From positions 1-33,592 of the forward strand of contig JACREJ010000068.1 in NCBI GenBank assembly GCA_016218305.1: a stretch of 33,592 bases of DNA, given 5' to 3'. Origin of the DNA: Gemmatimonadota bacterium (lineage in GTDB: Bacteria > Gemmatimonadota > Gemmatimonadetes > Gemmatimonadales > Gemmatimonadaceae). The position numbers and the translations under genes were made by a program. The notes under the pieces are model-generated. The model searched no databases. It was given only the letters and a program-made list of their open reading frames with translations, and had not been told where the DNA came from. Within the stretch, counting starts at the first letter, position 1. Every line of letters starts with the position of its first letter. This document shows, piece by piece, positions 1 to 33,592 of the stretch.

Positions 1-55
1 CACTCCTCTCTCCACTCCTCCCCCTCCTAAGCCCCTGCACCCCTCCTCCTCCTCA
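1..55. repeat. Partial copy (pyrimidine arm) of the long palindromic repeat family
   Basis: The C/T-rich strand here is the right arm of the palindromes at 7318-7455 and 31765-31889. Read on the minus strand it gives GAGGAGG, then GGTGCAGGGGCTTAGGAGG, then GAGGAGTGGAGAGAGGAGTG, matching the right arms of the other copies closely. The left arm would lie before the window. It ends just before larE, so it fills the upstream intergenic gap as the other copies do. Confidence 0.75.
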
Positions 56-3573: not shown

Positions 3574-5163
3574 CTACTTCGGTACGACTCCGGTGATTAC
3601 CACCTTGAAGCTCGGCACCGGACCTTCGGGAACGACCACGGTGTCGCGCGGCGGAAATCCCATCACTTCAAACCAGTAGACCATTTGGGCGAGTTGTTTC
3701 ACATTGCGCCCGCCGGAGCGCGCGGGCAAGAAGCGGAGCCCCGGTATCGCACCCTGAACGGCGAGAGTCAACAACGCGTGGCTGGAGCGCACCACTTTCA
3801 GCGTTTCGGGAATCGGCAAGCCGGTTGTGTCGACCACCATCTGCACGATCGTGACTCCACCGACGCCGGCGCTCTTCAAGATTTCGGGATAGCGCGGCGC
3901 CATGGATCCCGGCGCCAGCGCCACCGGGGCGTCGTTCGGGCGCGAGGTGGGTCCCTTCTTCGTCTCTGGAGACGAGGTGCTCGTCCAGACCTCCACGCGC
4001 CTCGCCGGCTTCTTCGTGGTGTCCTGTGCGACAATGAGCCGCAGCGGTTCCGTTCGCTTCTTCGTCGTGTCCTGCGCGAGTGAAACGGGAGGCATGAGTG
4101 GGCGCGCACTCAGCGATGAGACGGCGGGAAGAACAACCGTTGGCGGGGTCGCGGCCGCGCGCGGCACGCCAACGGGATCAGGTGGAGATGAGCGAGGCGT
4201 CGCCACACTGGCAGCGCCTGGCGCGGATGGCATCCACGCGCGCACACTGGCCAGCTCACGCGCCAGGACGGGCGAAGCGGAGAGTGCGCCGAGCGCGAGC
4301 GCGATCAGCGCGAACGCGGCGGCGCGAAGGACGCGACGTGCAGGAGGCGTGCTGTGCATGGCTGCGATCCTGAGTGGTAGGGTGTTCGGAGCGCCAGCGA
4401 TCATCGAGGCAAAGGCCGTCGCGCCTTGGCGTTGGGAGATGAGAAGCAGGAGGTGCGCGTAGCGGCGGCGGTCGGTGCCGGCGCGCACGACGCGATGGTC
4501 GCAGTCGAGCTCGGTGGCGGTGCGCAGGCGACGCAAGATCCACCAGAGGCTCGCGTTCCATGGGAAGAGCGCGACGAGCAACCACGCGACGGTGAGCACC
4601 GCGGGATCAGCGCTCCTCACGTGCTCCACCTCATGCCGGACCACGAGTTCGCGCATGGGGGTGTCGAGCTCGAGCGACCACCTCGGCAGGACGATGCGCG
4701 GCCGCACGATACCGAAGGCGGCAGGGCCGACGCTCGAGGTGATGAGGACATGGCGTCCCACGATCGTGTGTGGCTCAGCGCTTCGGGCGAGGCGGTGCAG
4801 CGCCAACAGTCCCACCACGGCGCGCGCGAGCAGAAGCACGGAGAGGGCGACCCAGAGCACGAGCAGCGGGCTGTCGAGTGCCACGAGGCGATCGCGGAGG
4901 CTTGGCGCGTCGACAAGCGCAACGGCCGTTCCGGCGGCACTCGTGACGGCCTCGGAGATCGTCACTTGATCCGTGGCCGACGGGACGAGTGGACGCGCGA
5001 GCACCGGAGCGAGCAGCGGCCAGGCGCAGGTCACCACGAGCGCGAGCACCCACACGTGGCGTCCCTGTCGGTTCAACAAGCGAAAGACACGTTCCGTAGC
5101 GAGCGCCGTGCCGCCGGCGAGCAGCCCGAGTGCAGTCGCAACGAGCATCCAGGTGGCGATCAT
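3574..5163 (-). CDS. M56 (BlaR1/MecR1-like) metallopeptidase sensor with C-terminal TonB domain
   Basis: The product is 529 aa. The N-terminal part (about 1-300) is an M56-type integral membrane zinc peptidase. It has hydrophobic segments at about 2-22, 36-58, 96-120, 190-208 and 280-300, the zinc motif HEVEH (His177, Glu178, His181), and ELDCDHRVV downstream. In the BlaR1 family this protease passes a surface signal to a BlaI-type repressor. A Pro/Thr-rich linker (about 300-410) contains the heptad AQDTTKK twice. Residues about 415-510 (from MAPRYPEILKSAGVGG to VYWFEVM) look like a TonB C-terminal domain rather than the penicillin-binding domain of BlaR1. The start overlaps the repressor's stop as ATGA. 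The signal is probably not a beta-lactam; a cue linked to envelope or TonB-dependent transport is more likely. Confidence 0.88.
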   Translation of the reverse strand: MIATWMLVATALGLLAGGTALATERVFRLLNRQGRHVWVLALVVTCAWPLLAPVLARPLVPSATDQVTISEAVTSAAGTAVALVDAPSLRDRLVALDSPLLVLWVALSVLLLARAVVGLLALHRLARSAEPHTIVGRHVLITSSVGPAAFGIVRPRIVLPRWSLELDTPMRELVVRHEVEHVRSADPAVLTVAWLLVALFPWNASLWWILRRLRTATELDCDHRVVRAGTDRRRYAHLLLLISQRQGATAFASMIAGAPNTLPLRIAAMHSTPPARRVLRAAAFALIALALGALSASPVLARELASVRAWMPSAPGAASVATPRSSPPDPVGVPRAAATPPTVVLPAVSSLSARPLMPPVSLAQDTTKKRTEPLRLIVAQDTTKKPARRVEVWTSTSSPETKKGPTSRPNDAPVALAPGSMAPRYPEILKSAGVGGVTIVQMVVDTTGLPIPETLKVVRSSHALLTLAVQGAIPGLRFLPARSGGRNVKQLAQMVYWFEVMGFPPRDTVVVPEGPVPSFKVVITGVVPK

Positions 5164-5829: not shown

Positions 5830-7311
<1,482 letters not shown>

Positions 7312-7317
7312 GGATCT

Positions 7318-7455
7318 GAGGAGAAGTGCAGGGGTATAGTAGGAGAGAGGAGTGGAGTGACCGGTGAGGGGAAGGGGGCGGGCCACTCGGCCCGCCCCCT
7401 GTCCCATCCCCCTCTCTCCACTCCTCCCTCCTTCCGAACCCCTGCACCCCTCCTC
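7318..7455. repeat. Long imperfect palindromic repeat, complete copy
   Basis: Two 67-nt arms surround the loop ACTC (7385-7388). The inner 12 bp pair perfectly (7373-7384 with 7389-7400, core GGGGGCGGGCC). About 40 of the outer 55 positions pair, including GTGCAGGGG and GAGGAGTGGAG. The left arm begins 6 nt after the aldehyde dehydrogenase stop, and the right arm ends 46 nt before signal peptidase. The purine arm is shared with 1-55 and 31765-31889. The inner GC stem could terminate transcription or block 3' decay, but no T-tract follows it. Confidence 0.85.
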
Positions 7456-7501
7456 CACCCTTGTTTCTGCCTTTGCTCGCGGCTAACTCCCAACTACACC
7501 C

Positions 7502-8281
7502 ATGACTGGCACCCCCCTCCCTCCCAATCCGCCCGAGCCGCCCCTGGTGAGCGGCGAGCCGGCGTTCGGCCCGACGCCGCGGCGCAGCCGCTGGCGTCCG
7601 CTGCACGTGCTCTGGGAGTGGGCCAAGTCCATGACGACGGCGCTCCTGTTGTTCCTCGTGGTGCGCACGTTCCTCGTGGAAGCGTTCAAGATCCCGAGCG
7701 GGTCCATGGAAGGCACACTCCTCGTGGGCGACTTCCTGCTCGTGAACAAGCTCGTCTACGGCGCCGAGGTGCCCTTCACGCACGCGCGCCTGCCGGCGGT
7801 ACGAGCGCCGCAGCACGAGGACGTGATCGTCTTCCGGTGGCCGCAGGATCCGACCAAGGACTTCGTGAAGCGCGTGGCCGGGCTGCCCGGCGACACGCTG
7901 GGCATGGTGGACGGCGTGCTGCAGCGCAACGGCCACGCCCTGCGCGAGCGCTACTCCTCGCATACGGAGCCGGGGTCGGATCCGGCGGGCGAGGAGTTCC
8001 GCTGGCAGCGGCGCTACCTGGTGGGGCGCGCGCGCGCCGGCCGCTCGTACCATCCGTCGCGCAACAACTGGGGCCCGCTCGTCGTCCCCCCGGCGCACCT
8101 CTTTGTCCTCGGCGACAATCGGGACAATTCGCTCGACAGCCGCTACTGGGGCTTCGTCCCGGACTCGCTGGTGAAGGGGCGTCCGATGTTGGTCTACTTC
8201 AGCTACGCGCCCGACAGCGCCTCCCCCGTTCCCTTCTTGACAAAGGTCCGGTGGCAGCGACTGGGGACGCGCATCCGCTGA
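7502..8281 (+). CDS. lepB: Signal peptidase I
   Basis: Type I signal peptidase, which removes Sec and Tat signal peptides on the outer face of the inner membrane. The product is 259 aa. A Pro-rich cytoplasmic N-terminus (about 1-40) precedes one membrane segment (about 44-58). The box with nucleophile Ser68 follows (KIPSGSMEGTLLVGDFLLVN), then general base Lys123 in DFVKRVAGLPGD, and the conserved late box VLGDNRDNSLDSRYWGFVP. All catalytic elements are present. ATG 7502 has no Shine-Dalgarno sequence; its leader is pyrimidine-rich. The sigma factor gene follows after 48 nt and is probably cotranscribed. Confidence 0.95.
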   Translation: MTGTPLPPNPPEPPLVSGEPAFGPTPRRSRWRPLHVLWEWAKSMTTALLLFLVVRTFLVEAFKIPSGSMEGTLLVGDFLLVNKLVYGAEVPFTHARLPAVRAPQHEDVIVFRWPQDPTKDFVKRVAGLPGDTLGMVDGVLQRNGHALRERYSSHTEPGSDPAGEEFRWQRRYLVGRARAGRSYHPSRNNWGPLVVPPAHLFVLGDNRDNSLDSRYWGFVPDSLVKGRPMLVYFSYAPDSASPVPFLTKVRWQRLGTRIR

Positions 8282-11262: not shown

Positions 11263-12635
11263 TGTGGCGCCGCCTGGCGGCCGGGGCCGCGCTCGTGCTC
11301 ATCGGGGCCTGCGTCACGACGCGGCTCGGTGTGCCGACGGAGGAAGAGCCCATTCGCGTGATCGGCCTGCCGCCGTCGAAGTCTGACACGCTGCCCGCTC
11401 CGGTGGCGCGGCCCGAGGAGATGCCCCGCGACGAGGCGCCGGACTTCCGCCGGGAGGGCGATCGCGACGTGCGGGTCTCGCTCGCCAACGCCGTGGAGTC
11501 CCCCGGCATTGCCGCCACCGGCGCCTGGCGCCTGTTTGATGAGCGGGAGAGCGTGCTGGTGCGCGGCCGTCCCGGCGAGGGGTGGACGTTGGAACTCAGC
11601 GACCGCCGGTTGCGCGCGGTCCGCACCGACGGCTTCGCGACGGCGTGGAGACCCGTGCCGCTCGTCCTGCGCGCCGATCGCGCCGATGAGTTCGTGCTGT
11701 TCAACGGCAAGCGCTATCGCGGCGTGCTGCGCTTTCACGCGGCCGACGACGGCGTGCGCGTGATGGTGGTCAACGGGCTCGGCGTGGAGCAGTACCTGCG
11801 CGGCGTCGTGCCGCTCGAGATTGGCGGGCGCACCGCGGCGGAGGCGGCGGCCGTGGAAGCGCAGGCGGTGGCGGCGCGCTCGTACACGTACGTGCGCCTG
11901 GCTGCGGCGGGCGGACGCGCGGCGCGGCACGTCAACTACGACCTCGTGGCCGGCACGTCGGACCAGGTGTACGGCGGCGTGGACGCCGAGCGCGCGTTCA
12001 GCGATGCGGCCGTCGCGCGGACGTCCGGTTTGGTGCTCAAGTACGGCGGACGCACGGTGGATGCGCCCTACTCGGCGTCTTGCGGCGGCGAGACCGCGAG
12101 CGCCGACGAAGTCTGGCGCACCGGCGCCCAGGGGTACCTGCGGCGCGTGAGCGACCGCATTCCCGGCACGCAGCGCTACTACTGCGATCCGGCCCCGCGC
12201 TTTGCGTGGACGCGCACCCTCGAGTCGGCGGAGCTGGACGCGGCGCTGCGCCAGTACCTGCGCAGCTACGTCAGCGTTCCCGCCGCGGGACCCGGGCACG
12301 CCACCAGCGTGACGGTCGAGGCGCGCACGCCAACCGGGCGCGTCGGTGCGATGCGAATCGAGACGGAGACCGGCCGTTACACGCTGCGCGGGAACGACGT
12401 GCGGTATGTGCTGCGACCGCCCGGTGGCGAGATCCTGAACAGCACCTATTTTTCGCTCGAACCCGAGCACGGCCCGGGCGGCTCGCTGCGGCGGCTCGTC
12501 ATCCGCGGCAACGGATGGGGCCACGGCATCGGCATGTGCCAGTGGGGAGCGATCGGCCGCGCGCGCGCCGGGCAGGATTTCCGCACCATCTTGCGCACGT
12601 ATTACCCGGGCACCGACCTCGGCCCGGCCAGCTGA
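11262..12635 (+). CDS. SpoIID/LytB-domain lipoprotein
   Basis: The product is 457 aa. Residues 1-20 are a lipoprotein signal peptide with lipobox LIGAC. After a Pro/Glu-rich linker and a beta-rich part (about 80-160), residues about 165-440 form a SpoIID/LytB-type domain: VEQYLRGVVPLEIG, EAQAVAARSYTYVRL, TSDQVYGG, SASCGGETASADEVW and NGWGHGIGMCQWGA. In spore-formers SpoIID is a lytic transglycosylase acting on peptidoglycan denuded of stem peptides, while LytB is an amidase modifier. In this apparently non-sporulating organism a role in cell-wall turnover at the outer or inner membrane is inferred. Its ATG overlaps the rimO stop (TGATG). Confidence 0.9.
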   Translation: MWRRLAAGAALVLIGACVTTRLGVPTEEEPIRVIGLPPSKSDTLPAPVARPEEMPRDEAPDFRREGDRDVRVSLANAVESPGIAATGAWRLFDERESVLVRGRPGEGWTLELSDRRLRAVRTDGFATAWRPVPLVLRADRADEFVLFNGKRYRGVLRFHAADDGVRVMVVNGLGVEQYLRGVVPLEIGGRTAAEAAAVEAQAVAARSYTYVRLAAAGGRAARHVNYDLVAGTSDQVYGGVDAERAFSDAAVARTSGLVLKYGGRTVDAPYSASCGGETASADEVWRTGAQGYLRRVSDRIPGTQRYYCDPAPRFAWTRTLESAELDAALRQYLRSYVSVPAAGPGHATSVTVEARTPTGRVGAMRIETETGRYTLRGNDVRYVLRPPGGEILNSTYFSLEPEHGPGGSLRRLVIRGNGWGHGIGMCQWGAIGRARAGQDFRTILRTYYPGTDLGPAS

Positions 12636-12643
12636 CTCCGACC

Positions 12644-13951
12644 ATGAGCTCCAGACGTCTCGTGAACGCCACCCGCGCCGCCCTCGCCCTGCTTTTCGCC
12701 GTCGCCAACGCGCTGCCGTCGCAGGCGCCGCCGCCGGCGGCCGTGAGTGCTGACACCGTAGCGGCGCAGCGCCTGCAAGTGTCCCTGCTCACCTTCGGGC
12801 AGGGAACGGCCGTCTTCGAGCGGTTCGGGCACAACGCCATCCGCATCCACGATCCGCTGATCGCGCTCGACATCAGCTGGAACTGGGGGATGTTCTCGTT
12901 TGACGAGCCCAACTTCCTGGGCCGGTTCCTGAGCGGCACGTCGCGCTACTGGGTCGAGGGCTTTGGGACGGTGCCGCTGCTCGCCTACTATCAGGAGAAC
13001 GACCGCCACACGGTGGAGCAGGTGCTGAACCTCAGCGCGGCGCAGAAGCTGGAGCTGCTGCGGTTCGTGCGCTGGAACGAGCTCGAGGAGAACAAGTACT
13101 ACGCGTACGACTACTTCCGCGACAACTGCTCGACGCGCGTGCGGGATGCGCTGGACCGCGTGCTCGGAGGCACCCTCAAGCGCGCGTGGAGCGATTCGCT
13201 GAGCACGTACACATTCCGCAGCGAGGCGCTGCGGCTCACCGAGGGCACGCCGCTCAGCCGACTGGGCATCGACATCGCGCTTGGGCCTCCGGCCGACCGC
13301 CGCATGACGGCTTGGGAAGAGATGTACGTCCCGATGCGCCTCCGCGACCGTATCCGCGGCCTCACGGTGCCAGGCCCCGGCGGCGCGCCCGTGCCGCTCG
13401 TCACGAGTGAGCGCGTGGTCTTCGCCTCGCTGCGCGACCCAGAAGCGGCCGCGCCGAGTGCGCTGCCCGGTCTCTATGTGGTCGTGGTACTCGGGACGCT
13501 CGTGCCGCTCGCCCTCTTCGGCGGCCTGGCGTTCCTGAGTGCGCTGCGCGGCCGGTGGCCCGGTGCGCAGCGGATCTCACGGTTCGCCATCGCCGGCATC
13601 GCGGCAGTGTGGTACGCCGCCACGGGCCTCATCGGGCTCGCCGTGATCTTCATGGAGCTCTTCTCGAAGCACGTCTTCTGGTACGGCAACTGGAACGTGC
13701 TCCTGCTCTCCCCGCTGGGGCTCGCGGCCGCGTGGTTCGTGCCGCGTGCGATCGTCGGCGGGCGCGGCGCGCGCGCCGCGCGCTGGCTCGCCGGCCTCTG
13801 CGGTGCAGGCGCGCTCAGCGCGCTCGGCCTCTCGGTGTCGGGGGCGATCGGCCAGTCCACCGGGGCGGTCGTTGTGGCCTTCGCGCCGGCCACGATGTAC
13901 CTGGCGCTGCTGGTGCCGGCGCTGACGCTCATCCGGCCGGCGCGGACGTGA
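12644..13951 (+). CDS. DUF4105 (Lnb-N-like) membrane protein
   Basis: The product is 435 aa. An N-terminal signal peptide (about 1-28, ending near NALPSQA) precedes a periplasmic domain at about 40-220. Its text (LLTFGQGTAVFERFGHNAIRI, NWGMFSFDEPNFLGRFL, YDYFRDNCSTRVRDAL) matches the DUF4105/Lnb N-terminal domain pattern, including the conserved His and Asn-Cys-Ser. The C-terminal part (about 275-430) holds about five hydrophobic segments. The biochemical role of the family is not established to my knowledge; the Cys/His pair suggests a papain-like fold, which is inference. It starts 8 nt after the SpoIID-like gene, and hyuA overlaps its end, so it belongs to the same operon. Confidence 0.82.
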   Translation: MSSRRLVNATRAALALLFAVANALPSQAPPPAAVSADTVAAQRLQVSLLTFGQGTAVFERFGHNAIRIHDPLIALDISWNWGMFSFDEPNFLGRFLSGTSRYWVEGFGTVPLLAYYQENDRHTVEQVLNLSAAQKLELLRFVRWNELEENKYYAYDYFRDNCSTRVRDALDRVLGGTLKRAWSDSLSTYTFRSEALRLTEGTPLSRLGIDIALGPPADRRMTAWEEMYVPMRLRDRIRGLTVPGPGGAPVPLVTSERVVFASLRDPEAAAPSALPGLYVVVVLGTLVPLALFGGLAFLSALRGRWPGAQRISRFAIAGIAAVWYAATGLIGLAVIFMELFSKHVFWYGNWNVLLLSPLGLAAAWFVPRAIVGGRGARAARWLAGLCGAGALSALGLSVSGAIGQSTGAVVVAFAPATMYLALLVPALTLIRPART

Positions 13952-31694: not shown

Positions 31695-31764
31695 GCGACC
31701 CTCGTGGCAGTGGGGGTGATCACTGAGAGCATACGCAAGAGGGGCTGAGAATGCTTGGGAGGGG

Positions 31765-31889
31765 GAGGAGTGCAGGGGCTTGGAAGGGGAGACGAGTGGA
31801 GTGTTGAGGGAGGGGGAGGAGGCGAACTGGTGGCCTCCTCCCCCCTCGCTCCTCTCTCCACTCCTCTCCCCTCCTGAACCCCTGCACTC
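31765..31889. repeat. Long imperfect palindromic repeat, second complete copy
   Basis: The inner arms GGGGGAGGAGGC (31812-31823) and GCCTCCTCCCCC (31833-31844) pair perfectly around a 9-nt loop. The outer arms repeat the family words on both sides: GAGGAGTGCAGGGG (31765-31778), its inverse near 31876-31889, and the GAGTGGAG blocks. On the minus strand it begins directly at the stop codon of the HD-GYP gene (31894-31896) and occupies most of the gap to the M14 gene. It is related to 1-55 and 7318-7455. Confidence 0.85.
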
Positions 31890-31893
31890 CTCC

Positions 31894-33592
31894 TCACGCC
31901 CCAGTCGGCGTCATCCTCCGCCCGGTCAGCGACCTCCACCCCTCCACCGGCTGCACCGCCTCGAACACCTTCGCCTCCACGAACGCAGTCAGCAGCGCCG
32001 CGTCCACGTGCCCGTGCTTCGCCTCGTCGTGCAGGATGTCCAGCGCCCGCTCGGCGGTGACGGCGCGCTTGTACGGGCGGTCGGTGGCCGTCAGCGCGTC
32101 GTAGATGTCGCTGATGGTCATCATGCGCGTCTGCACGGGGATGGCGGCGGAGTCCACGCCGCGCGGGTAGCCCGATCCGTCGAGCTTCTCGTGATGACCC
32201 CACGCGATCAGCGGAATCCCCTTCAGCTCGCGCGTCCACGGGATCTGCTCGAGGAAGCGGTACGTGTGCGTCACGTGGCTCTCGATCTCGCGCCGCTCAC
32301 GCTCGTCGAGGTTGCCGCGGTTGATCATCAGGTAGCGCAGCTCGTCGTCGCTCAGCAGGGGCTTCTCGGTGCCGTCGAAGTCCACGAAGAGGCGCTCGTT
32401 GATCTCGCTGAGCTCCTCAAAGCTCCCCTCAGGGAGAATCGTCGGCTCGTTGGCCCGCACGATGGCGTCGAGGAAGCGCAGGAGCTGGGTGCGCGACTCA
32501 TTGCGCGCGCGGTCGAGCCGCTGGAGCGCCGCCTCGTAGTTGGTGCGCCCGTATTCCCACAGGTACTGCGCGCGCTCGCGCTCGTACTGGAGGTCGGCGC
32601 GCTGCAGCAGGAACTGGAACCGGTGCCGGATGATGGCGAGGTCCGACGGGTACAGCTTCTTCTGCTTCACCAGCACCTGCTCGCGCACGCCCACCTTGCC
32701 AAAGTCGTGCAGCAGCGACGCGTAGCGCAGCTCGCGCAGCTCTTCGCGCGAGAAGCGCAGGTGCCCATAGGGGCCGCTGTCCACGCGGTCCACCGCGGAG
32801 GCCAGCCCGGTCGTGTAGACGGCCACCCGCGACGAGTGGCCCGACGTCGTCGGGTCGCGGCTCTCGATCGCCGTCACCGATGCCATCACGAAGCCTTCGA
32901 ACAGCCGCTCGATGTCCTCGTACAGCCGCCCGTTCTCGATGGCCACCGCGGCCTGCGACGCGAGGCCGCTGATGAGCGCCACCGCGTGCGCGTCGAACGG
33001 CCGCACCTCGCGCTCGACGTCGGCCGCCGTCGCGAGCCGCGCCGCGGCGCTCCGCTTGCGGTTGATCAGCTGCAGCACGCCCACGATCTCGTCGCGATGC
33101 GTGCGCATCGGGATCGTCACCATGGACTTCGTGCGGTACCCGAACTTCTCGTCGAACGACCGGTTGAACGTGAAGCGGTCGCCCGGCCCCAGCGCGTAGG
33201 CGTCCTCGAAGTTGATGGCCTCGCCCGACACCGCCGCGGCGCCGGCGATGGACGACGCATCCAGCGGCACCGTGTACTCGCTGAAGGGCAGGTCGGGAAG
33301 CGTGTAGTTCTGCGAGAGCTTGAAGCGGAGCACCGCCGCCTCCCCCCGCTCCACGAGGTACAGCGACCCCGCGTCTGCCGACGACAGCCGCCGCGCCTGT
33401 TCGAGGATGAGCGCCAGCAGCGTCGGCAGGTCACGCTCGGTGGACAGGGCGACGCCGATGCGCGAGAGCTCGGCGATCTCCCCGGCGCGCGCGGCCGCGG
33501 CCGCGGCCTCACGCCGCGCCGCCACGAGCGCCGCGGCGTGGCGCACGGCGCCCTGGAGCGCCGTGCGCGCGAGCGCCGGCGCCGCGTCCTCC
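31894..33592 (-). CDS. GAF/HD-GYP phosphodiesterase (partial, 5' end beyond window)
   Basis: The frame stays open to the window end, so at least 565 codons are present and the start is missing; a GTG at 33546 is only an internal candidate. After a short Ala/Arg helix, a GAF domain (nt about 33450-32910) reads LSRIGVALSTERDLPTLLALIL, SMVTIPMRTHRDEIVGVLQLIN and GLASQAAVAIENGRLY. The HD-GYP domain follows with SGHSSRVAVYT, metal-binding LLHDFGKVGV, and HHEKLDGSGYPRG. This is the cyclic di-GMP hydrolase signature with GYP intact. About 105 residues are inserted between IIRHRFQFLL and REIESHVTHTYRFL, so the domain is split. No signal peptide or membrane segment is visible in the part seen. The stop codon abuts a palindromic repeat. 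Confidence 0.9.
   Translation of the reverse strand, partial: EDAAPALARTALQGAVRHAAALVAARREAAAAAARAGEIAELSRIGVALSTERDLPTLLALILEQARRLSSADAGSLYLVERGEAAVLRFKLSQNYTLPDLPFSEYTVPLDASSIAGAAAVSGEAINFEDAYALGPGDRFTFNRSFDEKFGYRTKSMVTIPMRTHRDEIVGVLQLINRKRSAAARLATAADVEREVRPFDAHAVALISGLASQAAVAIENGRLYEDIERLFEGFVMASVTAIESRDPTTSGHSSRVAVYTTGLASAVDRVDSGPYGHLRFSREELRELRYASLLHDFGKVGVREQVLVKQKKLYPSDLAIIRHRFQFLLQRADLQYERERAQYLWEYGRTNYEAALQRLDRARNESRTQLLRFLDAIVRANEPTILPEGSFEELSEINERLFVDFDGTEKPLLSDDELRYLMINRGNLDERERREIESHVTHTYRFLEQIPWTRELKGIPLIAWGHHEKLDGSGYPRGVDSAAIPVQTRMMTISDIYDALTATDRPYKRAVTAERALDILHDEAKHGHVDAALLTAFVEAKVFEAVQPVEGWRSLTGRRMTPTGA

Follow-up and report, generated by a model that had tools for sequence, protein, structure and literature searches.

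REP-doublet-like palindromes behind stop codons in a Gemmatimonadota genus as possible mRNA 3'-end hairpins rewritten in concert within lineages

Long palindromic elements of one family (family I) are dispersed through the draft genome of a Gemmatimonadota bacterium, mostly right behind stop codons, where each is predicted to fold as one long hairpin. At orthologous gene ends within the genus the hairpin shape and place were often kept and the sequence was replaced. We interpret these elements as REP-doublet-like hairpins of mRNA 3' ends that may be rewritten in concert within lineages, a reading for which we judge the chances to be evenly balanced. Two questions, the host function of REP-like repeats at mRNA 3' ends and homogenisation without a recognised transposase, can be tested here on one data set.

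The window analysed is the whole stretch of 33,592 nt (G000:C20:1-33592), which is one entire contig of a 2.0-Mb draft genome with 116 contigs and 91.7% completeness. Its relevant features are as follows:

1-52, minus strand: arm of a family I copy truncated by the contig start (pattern match at G000:C20:10-40), upstream of the gene at 109-1002
5830-7311, plus strand: aldehyde dehydrogenase gene (PF00171, E 1.3e-167), 5' of the element at 7314-7459
7314-7459, no strand assigned: full family I palindromic element (covariance model match of 120 bits, on both strands; fold), 2 nt past the aldehyde dehydrogenase stop codon
7326-7357, plus strand: left arm words GTGCAGGGG...GAGTGGAG of the element 7314-7459 (fold, pattern match)
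7416-7447, minus strand: right arm words, reverse complement, of the element 7314-7459 (fold, pattern match)
7460-7501, plus strand: putative promoter of the signal peptidase gene (TTGTTT-N17-TAACTC, read by eye)
7502-8281, plus strand: signal peptidase (lepB-like) gene (PF10502, Peptidase_S26, E 8.9e-47)
31758-31899, no strand assigned: full family I palindromic element (model match of 132 bits), with a -6 nt gap to the stop of the GAF/HD gene
31770-31801, plus strand: left arm words of the element 31758-31899 (pattern match)
31856-31887, minus strand: right arm words of the element 31758-31899 (pattern match)
31894-33546, minus strand: GAF/HD-domain gene (PF13487 and PF01590), its stop codon adjoining the second element

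The three places named in the original prediction were all recovered: the long palindrome between the aldehyde dehydrogenase gene and lepB is a full copy with a single predicted hairpin, the further copy placed at 31765-31889 is the full element 31758-31899, and the single arm at 1-55 belongs to an element truncated by the contig start. The minimum free energy was -107 kcal/mol for the 138-nt stretch 7318-7455 and -112 kcal/mol for 31758-31895, each as one single hairpin. Rfam gave no match in the window at gathering score. Stretches like the promoter-like one at 7460-7501 were read by eye downstream of the hairpins in several relatives, suggesting that the hairpin separates the aldehyde dehydrogenase and signal peptidase units there.

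Genome-wide, the arm pattern GTGCAGGGGN{5,25}GAGTGGAG had 56 matches and its reversed control none. A covariance model built from 25 copies, whose E-values the tool itself describes as rough, found 34 family I places of at least 79 bits, one of them truncated by a contig end, so that the family predicted to be genome-wide exceeds the ten copies taken as its threshold. Two more doublets, one long-looped and one truncated by a contig end, were located through their arm words. Doublets (36, two truncated by contig ends) thus outnumber the nine solo half-units, and singlets are the rarer form. Of 16 weaker model matches (37-68 bits), one was a solo family I unit (C57:3538) and 15 had other wordings: six of the type seen in the relatives G001 and G006, five of the AAGGGTGCAGGGTGTGG type, three of the GATGGGAGATGGG type and one hybrid. 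In the hybrid hairpin at C102:52261-52398 the right arm is family I and the left arm carries GACGG/GTAGACGG words. Elements or arms were also present at the ends of five contigs (C20, C104, C82, C15 and C42), a pattern to be expected where assemblies break at long hairpins, and such hairpins may account for contig breaks in drafts of this kind. A stricter arm pattern run against a collection of named genomes returned five stretches, three in Gemmatimonas sp. PR.004, one in Candidatus Solincola quzhuomuensis and one in an uncultured bacterium. A phage or plasmid origin was considered and rejected, one family I copy having no match in the phage and plasmid records searched.

Each element is built of two inverted half-units of ~65 nt around a variable loop, the 5' arm being rich in purines and the 3' arm in pyrimidines. 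The half-unit consensus is approximately GGGGGAGGRGTGCAGGGGYTTRGNAGGRGNGAGGAGTGGAG; the purine stretch after it varies more freely. In the predicted folds of 29 copies the arm pair was very stable and the lone arms were nearly unstructured: folding energy per nt was -0.75 kcal/mol for whole elements and -0.05 and -0.02 kcal/mol for lone arms (62-nt end pieces). The purine-rich arms of the original prediction were confirmed (mean purine content 84% in the first 62 nt of 29 copies), and its pure polypurine strands were not, as all purine and pyrimidine runs in the window are shorter than 18 nt; for the same reason triplex-forming DNA, one of the roles proposed for the palindromes, is unlikely and was set aside.

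The co-variation of the two arms within family I was analyzed with a mate-swap test on 29 elements, of which 18 with equal spacer lengths were usable for the spacer and 28 for the inner stem. Own mates were no better than swapped ones in spacer identity (10.8 versus 11.1), and in the inner 22 nt the stability of the own mates was matched by 725 of 5000 permutations. Over the inner 8 nt own mates paired worse than swapped ones (28 copies; stability equal to or above that of the own mates in 4986 of 5000 permutations). Pair counting in 25 copies gave a weak excess over shuffles: of 500 shuffles, 25 reached the covariation score, 7 the count of further pair types and 72 the count of pairs with both sides changed. 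The covariation score was equally high when the structure was slid by +3 columns. The arms of family I hardly co-vary beyond the common consensus, and they are complementary because each fits that consensus. Arm co-variation was accordingly rejected as evidence of folding, own mates being no better than swapped, and the earlier argument for selection on folding from conserved words and differing loops found no support inside the family; arms that fail to co-vary between copies were among the outcomes that the original prediction itself listed as refuting. What does point to a kept hairpin shape is the comparison with relatives, in which the orthologous gene ends often carry hairpins of other sequence.

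The position of the elements relative to genes was determined with gene calls from our own codon-usage script, which is not a standard gene finder. Among element edges facing a stop codon, 28 of 35 lay within 10 nt of it, in agreement with the predicted place at gene 3' ends, versus 2 of 34 edges facing a start codon. The 36 elements fell into 28 tandem, two convergent and three divergent gene pairs and three contig edges. At five tight junctions the next start codon follows within 4-24 nt; there the effect of the element would be partial at most, since a strong barrier would be harmful to the gene that follows. In the relative G001, a 300-kb region taken regardless of hairpins (gaps between 60 and 500 nt, each shuffled once) had stems of at least 30 bp in 9 of 17 convergent gaps (2 when shuffled), 11 of 66 tandem gaps (4 when shuffled) and 3 of 34 divergent gaps (3 when shuffled). 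In a census of syntenic blocks from eleven genomes, a smaller sample than the 300 kb of G001, divergent gaps were not below tandem ones, with 5 of 18 versus 29 of 110 for stems of at least 25 bp and 3 of 18 versus 16 of 110 for stems of at least 40 bp. No U-tract was found behind the hairpins in 27 three-prime flanks, TTTT being present in one of them. Gaps holding an element were not depleted of canonical terminators (5 of 29, versus 7 of 46 gaps lacking one).

Model matches were obtained in all 11 genomes of the genus, the own genome and ten relatives. Across the wider bacterial family, with the own genus counted in, the model matched 30 of 79 genomes (18 of 35 genera); these counts may be low given the stricter filters of this family-wide search. 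Forty places in six relative genomes were read: one was family I, one was a hybrid and the rest mostly had other words. The wordings included CGGAACGAGGAGGAGGTAGAGGC in G001 and G006, GGGACGGGGACGGGGTGCGGGGGCTTGG in G009 and a similar one in G010, CGGAACGGGGAGGGGGGCCGGGACTAAGG in G005 and the CAGAGTGGGGTGCAGGG type in G010; the hybrid in a relative, G009:C4:22716-22877, has one arm of each wording. At the aldehyde dehydrogenase end, family I in the own genome corresponds to a hairpin of CGGAACGAGG wording in G006, where the protein is 98% identical, and to hairpins with GACGG words in G002 and G010. In G001 (locus L148) the reading frame continues about 20 codons into GATGGC hairpin words, and the element seems to have altered the C-terminus of the aldehyde dehydrogenase. 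Comparable hairpin series were observed at the GAF/HD gene end and at seven more junctions. At junction C70g4, G006 keeps a full family I hairpin, G001 and G010 have, as read by eye, an apparent lone half-unit of other wording, and G005 has no hairpin, its genes being 9 nt apart, indicating that the hairpin is dispensable there; G006 also has a lone family I half at C70g5, and G005 and G010 are without a hairpin at C70 g2.

The persistence of the stems was quantified at nine junctions carrying own elements, whose own stems are 47-63 bp, and at 43 corresponding relative sites, a stem being counted when it started within 30 nt of the homologous stop. Sites were dropped for protein identity below 70%, an alignment ending more than 15 amino acids before the C-terminus or less than 120 nt of remaining sequence, and G003, G007, G008 and the loci L203 and L204 were left out. 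Stems of at least 30 bp were found at 28 of 43 relative sites versus 32 of 229 unselected G001 stops treated by the same procedure (Fisher p 2e-11), and stems of at least 40 bp at 22 of 43 versus 25 of 229 (Fisher p 1e-8). This baseline includes all stops, also operon-internal ones, and stems within coding sequence, of which some were seen by eye at the orthologous sites (G001 at C70g5), were counted alike in sites and baseline. An alternative baseline of tandem and convergent G001 gaps of 60-500 nt, with a slightly stricter stem rule and unrestricted stem start, gave 20 of 83 and 16 of 83 for the two lengths.

The wording of these hairpins was biased by lineage. The share of 8-mers in common was 0.223 for pairs from one species (100), 0.094 for pairs from different species at the same junction (57) and 0.082 for pairs that differ in both (438), a statistic that includes own sites picked for carrying family I; with the own genome excluded the effect was weaker (0.172, 0.115 and 0.102). 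The observed difference in arm identity was reached in none of 1000 permutations of the labels. Arm sequence tracks species more than junction, and it does so as a bias rather than a rule, since the own genome also holds six hairpins of the G001/G006 wording.

REP elements have been proposed to act as a barrier to exonucleases at mRNA 3' ends. In the explanation that we propose, two inverted half-units, mostly right behind the stop codon, would be transcribed and pair in the mRNA as one long hairpin past the last codon. This hairpin would fix the 3' end, protect it from 3'-to-5' exonucleases and insulate neighbouring genes. The position, the single-hairpin design and the persistence of shape at orthologous stops fit an mRNA 3'-end role, and the missing U-tract makes protection or definition of the 3' end more likely than intrinsic termination. 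The place and shape of the hairpin would persist as its sequence turns over, the copies of one genome coming to share words by concerted rewriting, either through conversion between copies or because elements insert again and again at the same gene ends. Of these, conversion in place from one palindrome to another seems more economical, given that no Y1 transposase was found in the own draft genome and no young copies were seen, and the two hybrids (G009:C4:22716-22877 and own C102:52261-52398) fit it; with one arm per wording, they may be intermediates of the overwriting. More tentatively, and with somewhat less confidence than in the 3'-end reading, we suggest that gene 3' ends in this genus inherit a hairpin's place and shape and that each genome overwrites the sequence in concert without a recognised transposase, possibly by break-and-copy repair.

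A serious but unlikely alternative is a selfish miniature element, REPIN-like or MITE-like, non-autonomous, copied by an enzyme in trans and tolerated mainly at gene ends as the least harmful place, the hairpin being its mobility signal. Scattered copies, mostly inverted doublets and less often solo halves, reading frames of relatives that continue into hairpin words, and junctions that are occupied in one genome and empty in another (G005 at C70g4; G005 and G010 at C70 g2) would all be expected of it. MITEs are short, non-coding, multi-copy elements with inverted repeats, and family I resembles them in each of these respects. It differs in lacking young, near-identical copies: among 29 own copies pairwise identity averaged 70% and the top of 406 pairs reached 83%, and no target duplication was seen by eye. 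The MITE-like element of the original prediction, in its classical form, is weakened because no near-identical copies were seen. PF01797, the Y1 transposase of RAYT type, had no match in the own draft genome (91.7% complete) and matches in only 2 of the 11 genus genomes, and RAYT/REP transposition was rejected for the own genome on this ground. Insertion alone would also give no reason to expect differently worded hairpins behind the same orthologous stops.

We consider it quite improbable that the elements act at the DNA level, their words being bound by a protein involved in the nucleoid, recombination or supercoiling, or the palindrome forming a cruciform, with transcription incidental. The words GTGCAGGGG and GAGTGGAG are conserved amid variable neighbouring positions and occur on both arms, solo arms exist, and the arms within one element diverge as much as those of separate elements, an independent drift expected if each arm is recognised singly. 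However, the conservation of the words is partly ascertained, the copies having been found via them, relatives often keep the hairpin without the words, and the tie to stop codons together with the scarcity in divergent gaps of one relative (G001) points to the transcript. Ordinary intrinsic terminators that share a low-complexity purine composition by chance would also sit behind stops and in convergent gaps, and such terminators, as defined in PMC8269248, likewise have their hairpin right behind the stop codon, but this reading is very unlikely and largely refuted by the missing U-tract (TTTT in 1 of 27 flanks), and family I further differs from that description in its much longer stem (47-63 bp at the nine own junctions) and in words common to dispersed copies, for which the reversed control gave 0 matches.

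The mRNA 3'-end reading was compared with described repeat families. According to PMC3733652, most REPs of two species are less than 20 bp from both ORF 3' ends where the genes converge and close to the upstream ORF between tandem genes, their ends often supply the stop codon, and roles in supercoiling, transcription termination and mRNA stabilisation are described. REP elements and dimers are there, like family I, dispersed, intergenic, palindromic and near ORF 3' ends in tandem and convergent pairs, and may supply a stop codon; this match in place upholds the REP-like nature proposed in the original prediction. The dimers are likewise inverted and foldable into one large stem-loop, and their families differ between related species (PMC3733652). 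High copy number and an intergenic place near ORF 3' ends, by which REPs are recognised, were found for family I (34 copies; 28 of 35 edges). In contrast, the GTAG and CGTC families in that text are self-palindromic units of 20-40 bp with a tag, whereas the family I half-unit has no lone fold and no consistent tag (terminal 22 nt of 29 copies: GTAG in 2, CGTC in 3). REPINs, as described in PMC3116915, share with family I the inverted doublet with a spacer that forms a hairpin, and solo singlets; they are tied to RAYT transposases, none of which was found in the own genome, and family I differs from them in that orthologous gene-end hairpins often have other words in other species. The elements are filed as REP-doublet-like in action and outside the described REP and REPIN families, from which they differ in unit, tag and enzyme. 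A literature search by title and abstract start, with partial coverage, gave no paper describing these repeats among the matches listed.

Hairpins and half-units of other kinds were also observed. In G001, nine hairpins of ~170 nt with CACCACGGAGGCACGGAG words occur within 45 kb (G001:C21:244000-289000, L219-L221), five of them between convergent genes and four between tandem ones, and three more lie elsewhere in the 300 kb. In the own genome, another hairpin with CGGAT words at about 4940-5070 of G000:C6 (L083) sits slightly 3' of an apparent canonical T-tailed terminator and has dozens of partial matches in G006, and a ACAACAGAGAGA-type palindrome that differs from family I, at about 12,540-12,660 of G000:C47 (L090), has a similar hairpin in G001:C21 at about 107,005. 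By our own gene calls, four solo half-units lie at gene starts with the pyrimidine strand in sense (G000:C37:3905, C47:12260, C69:1930 and C75:15980).
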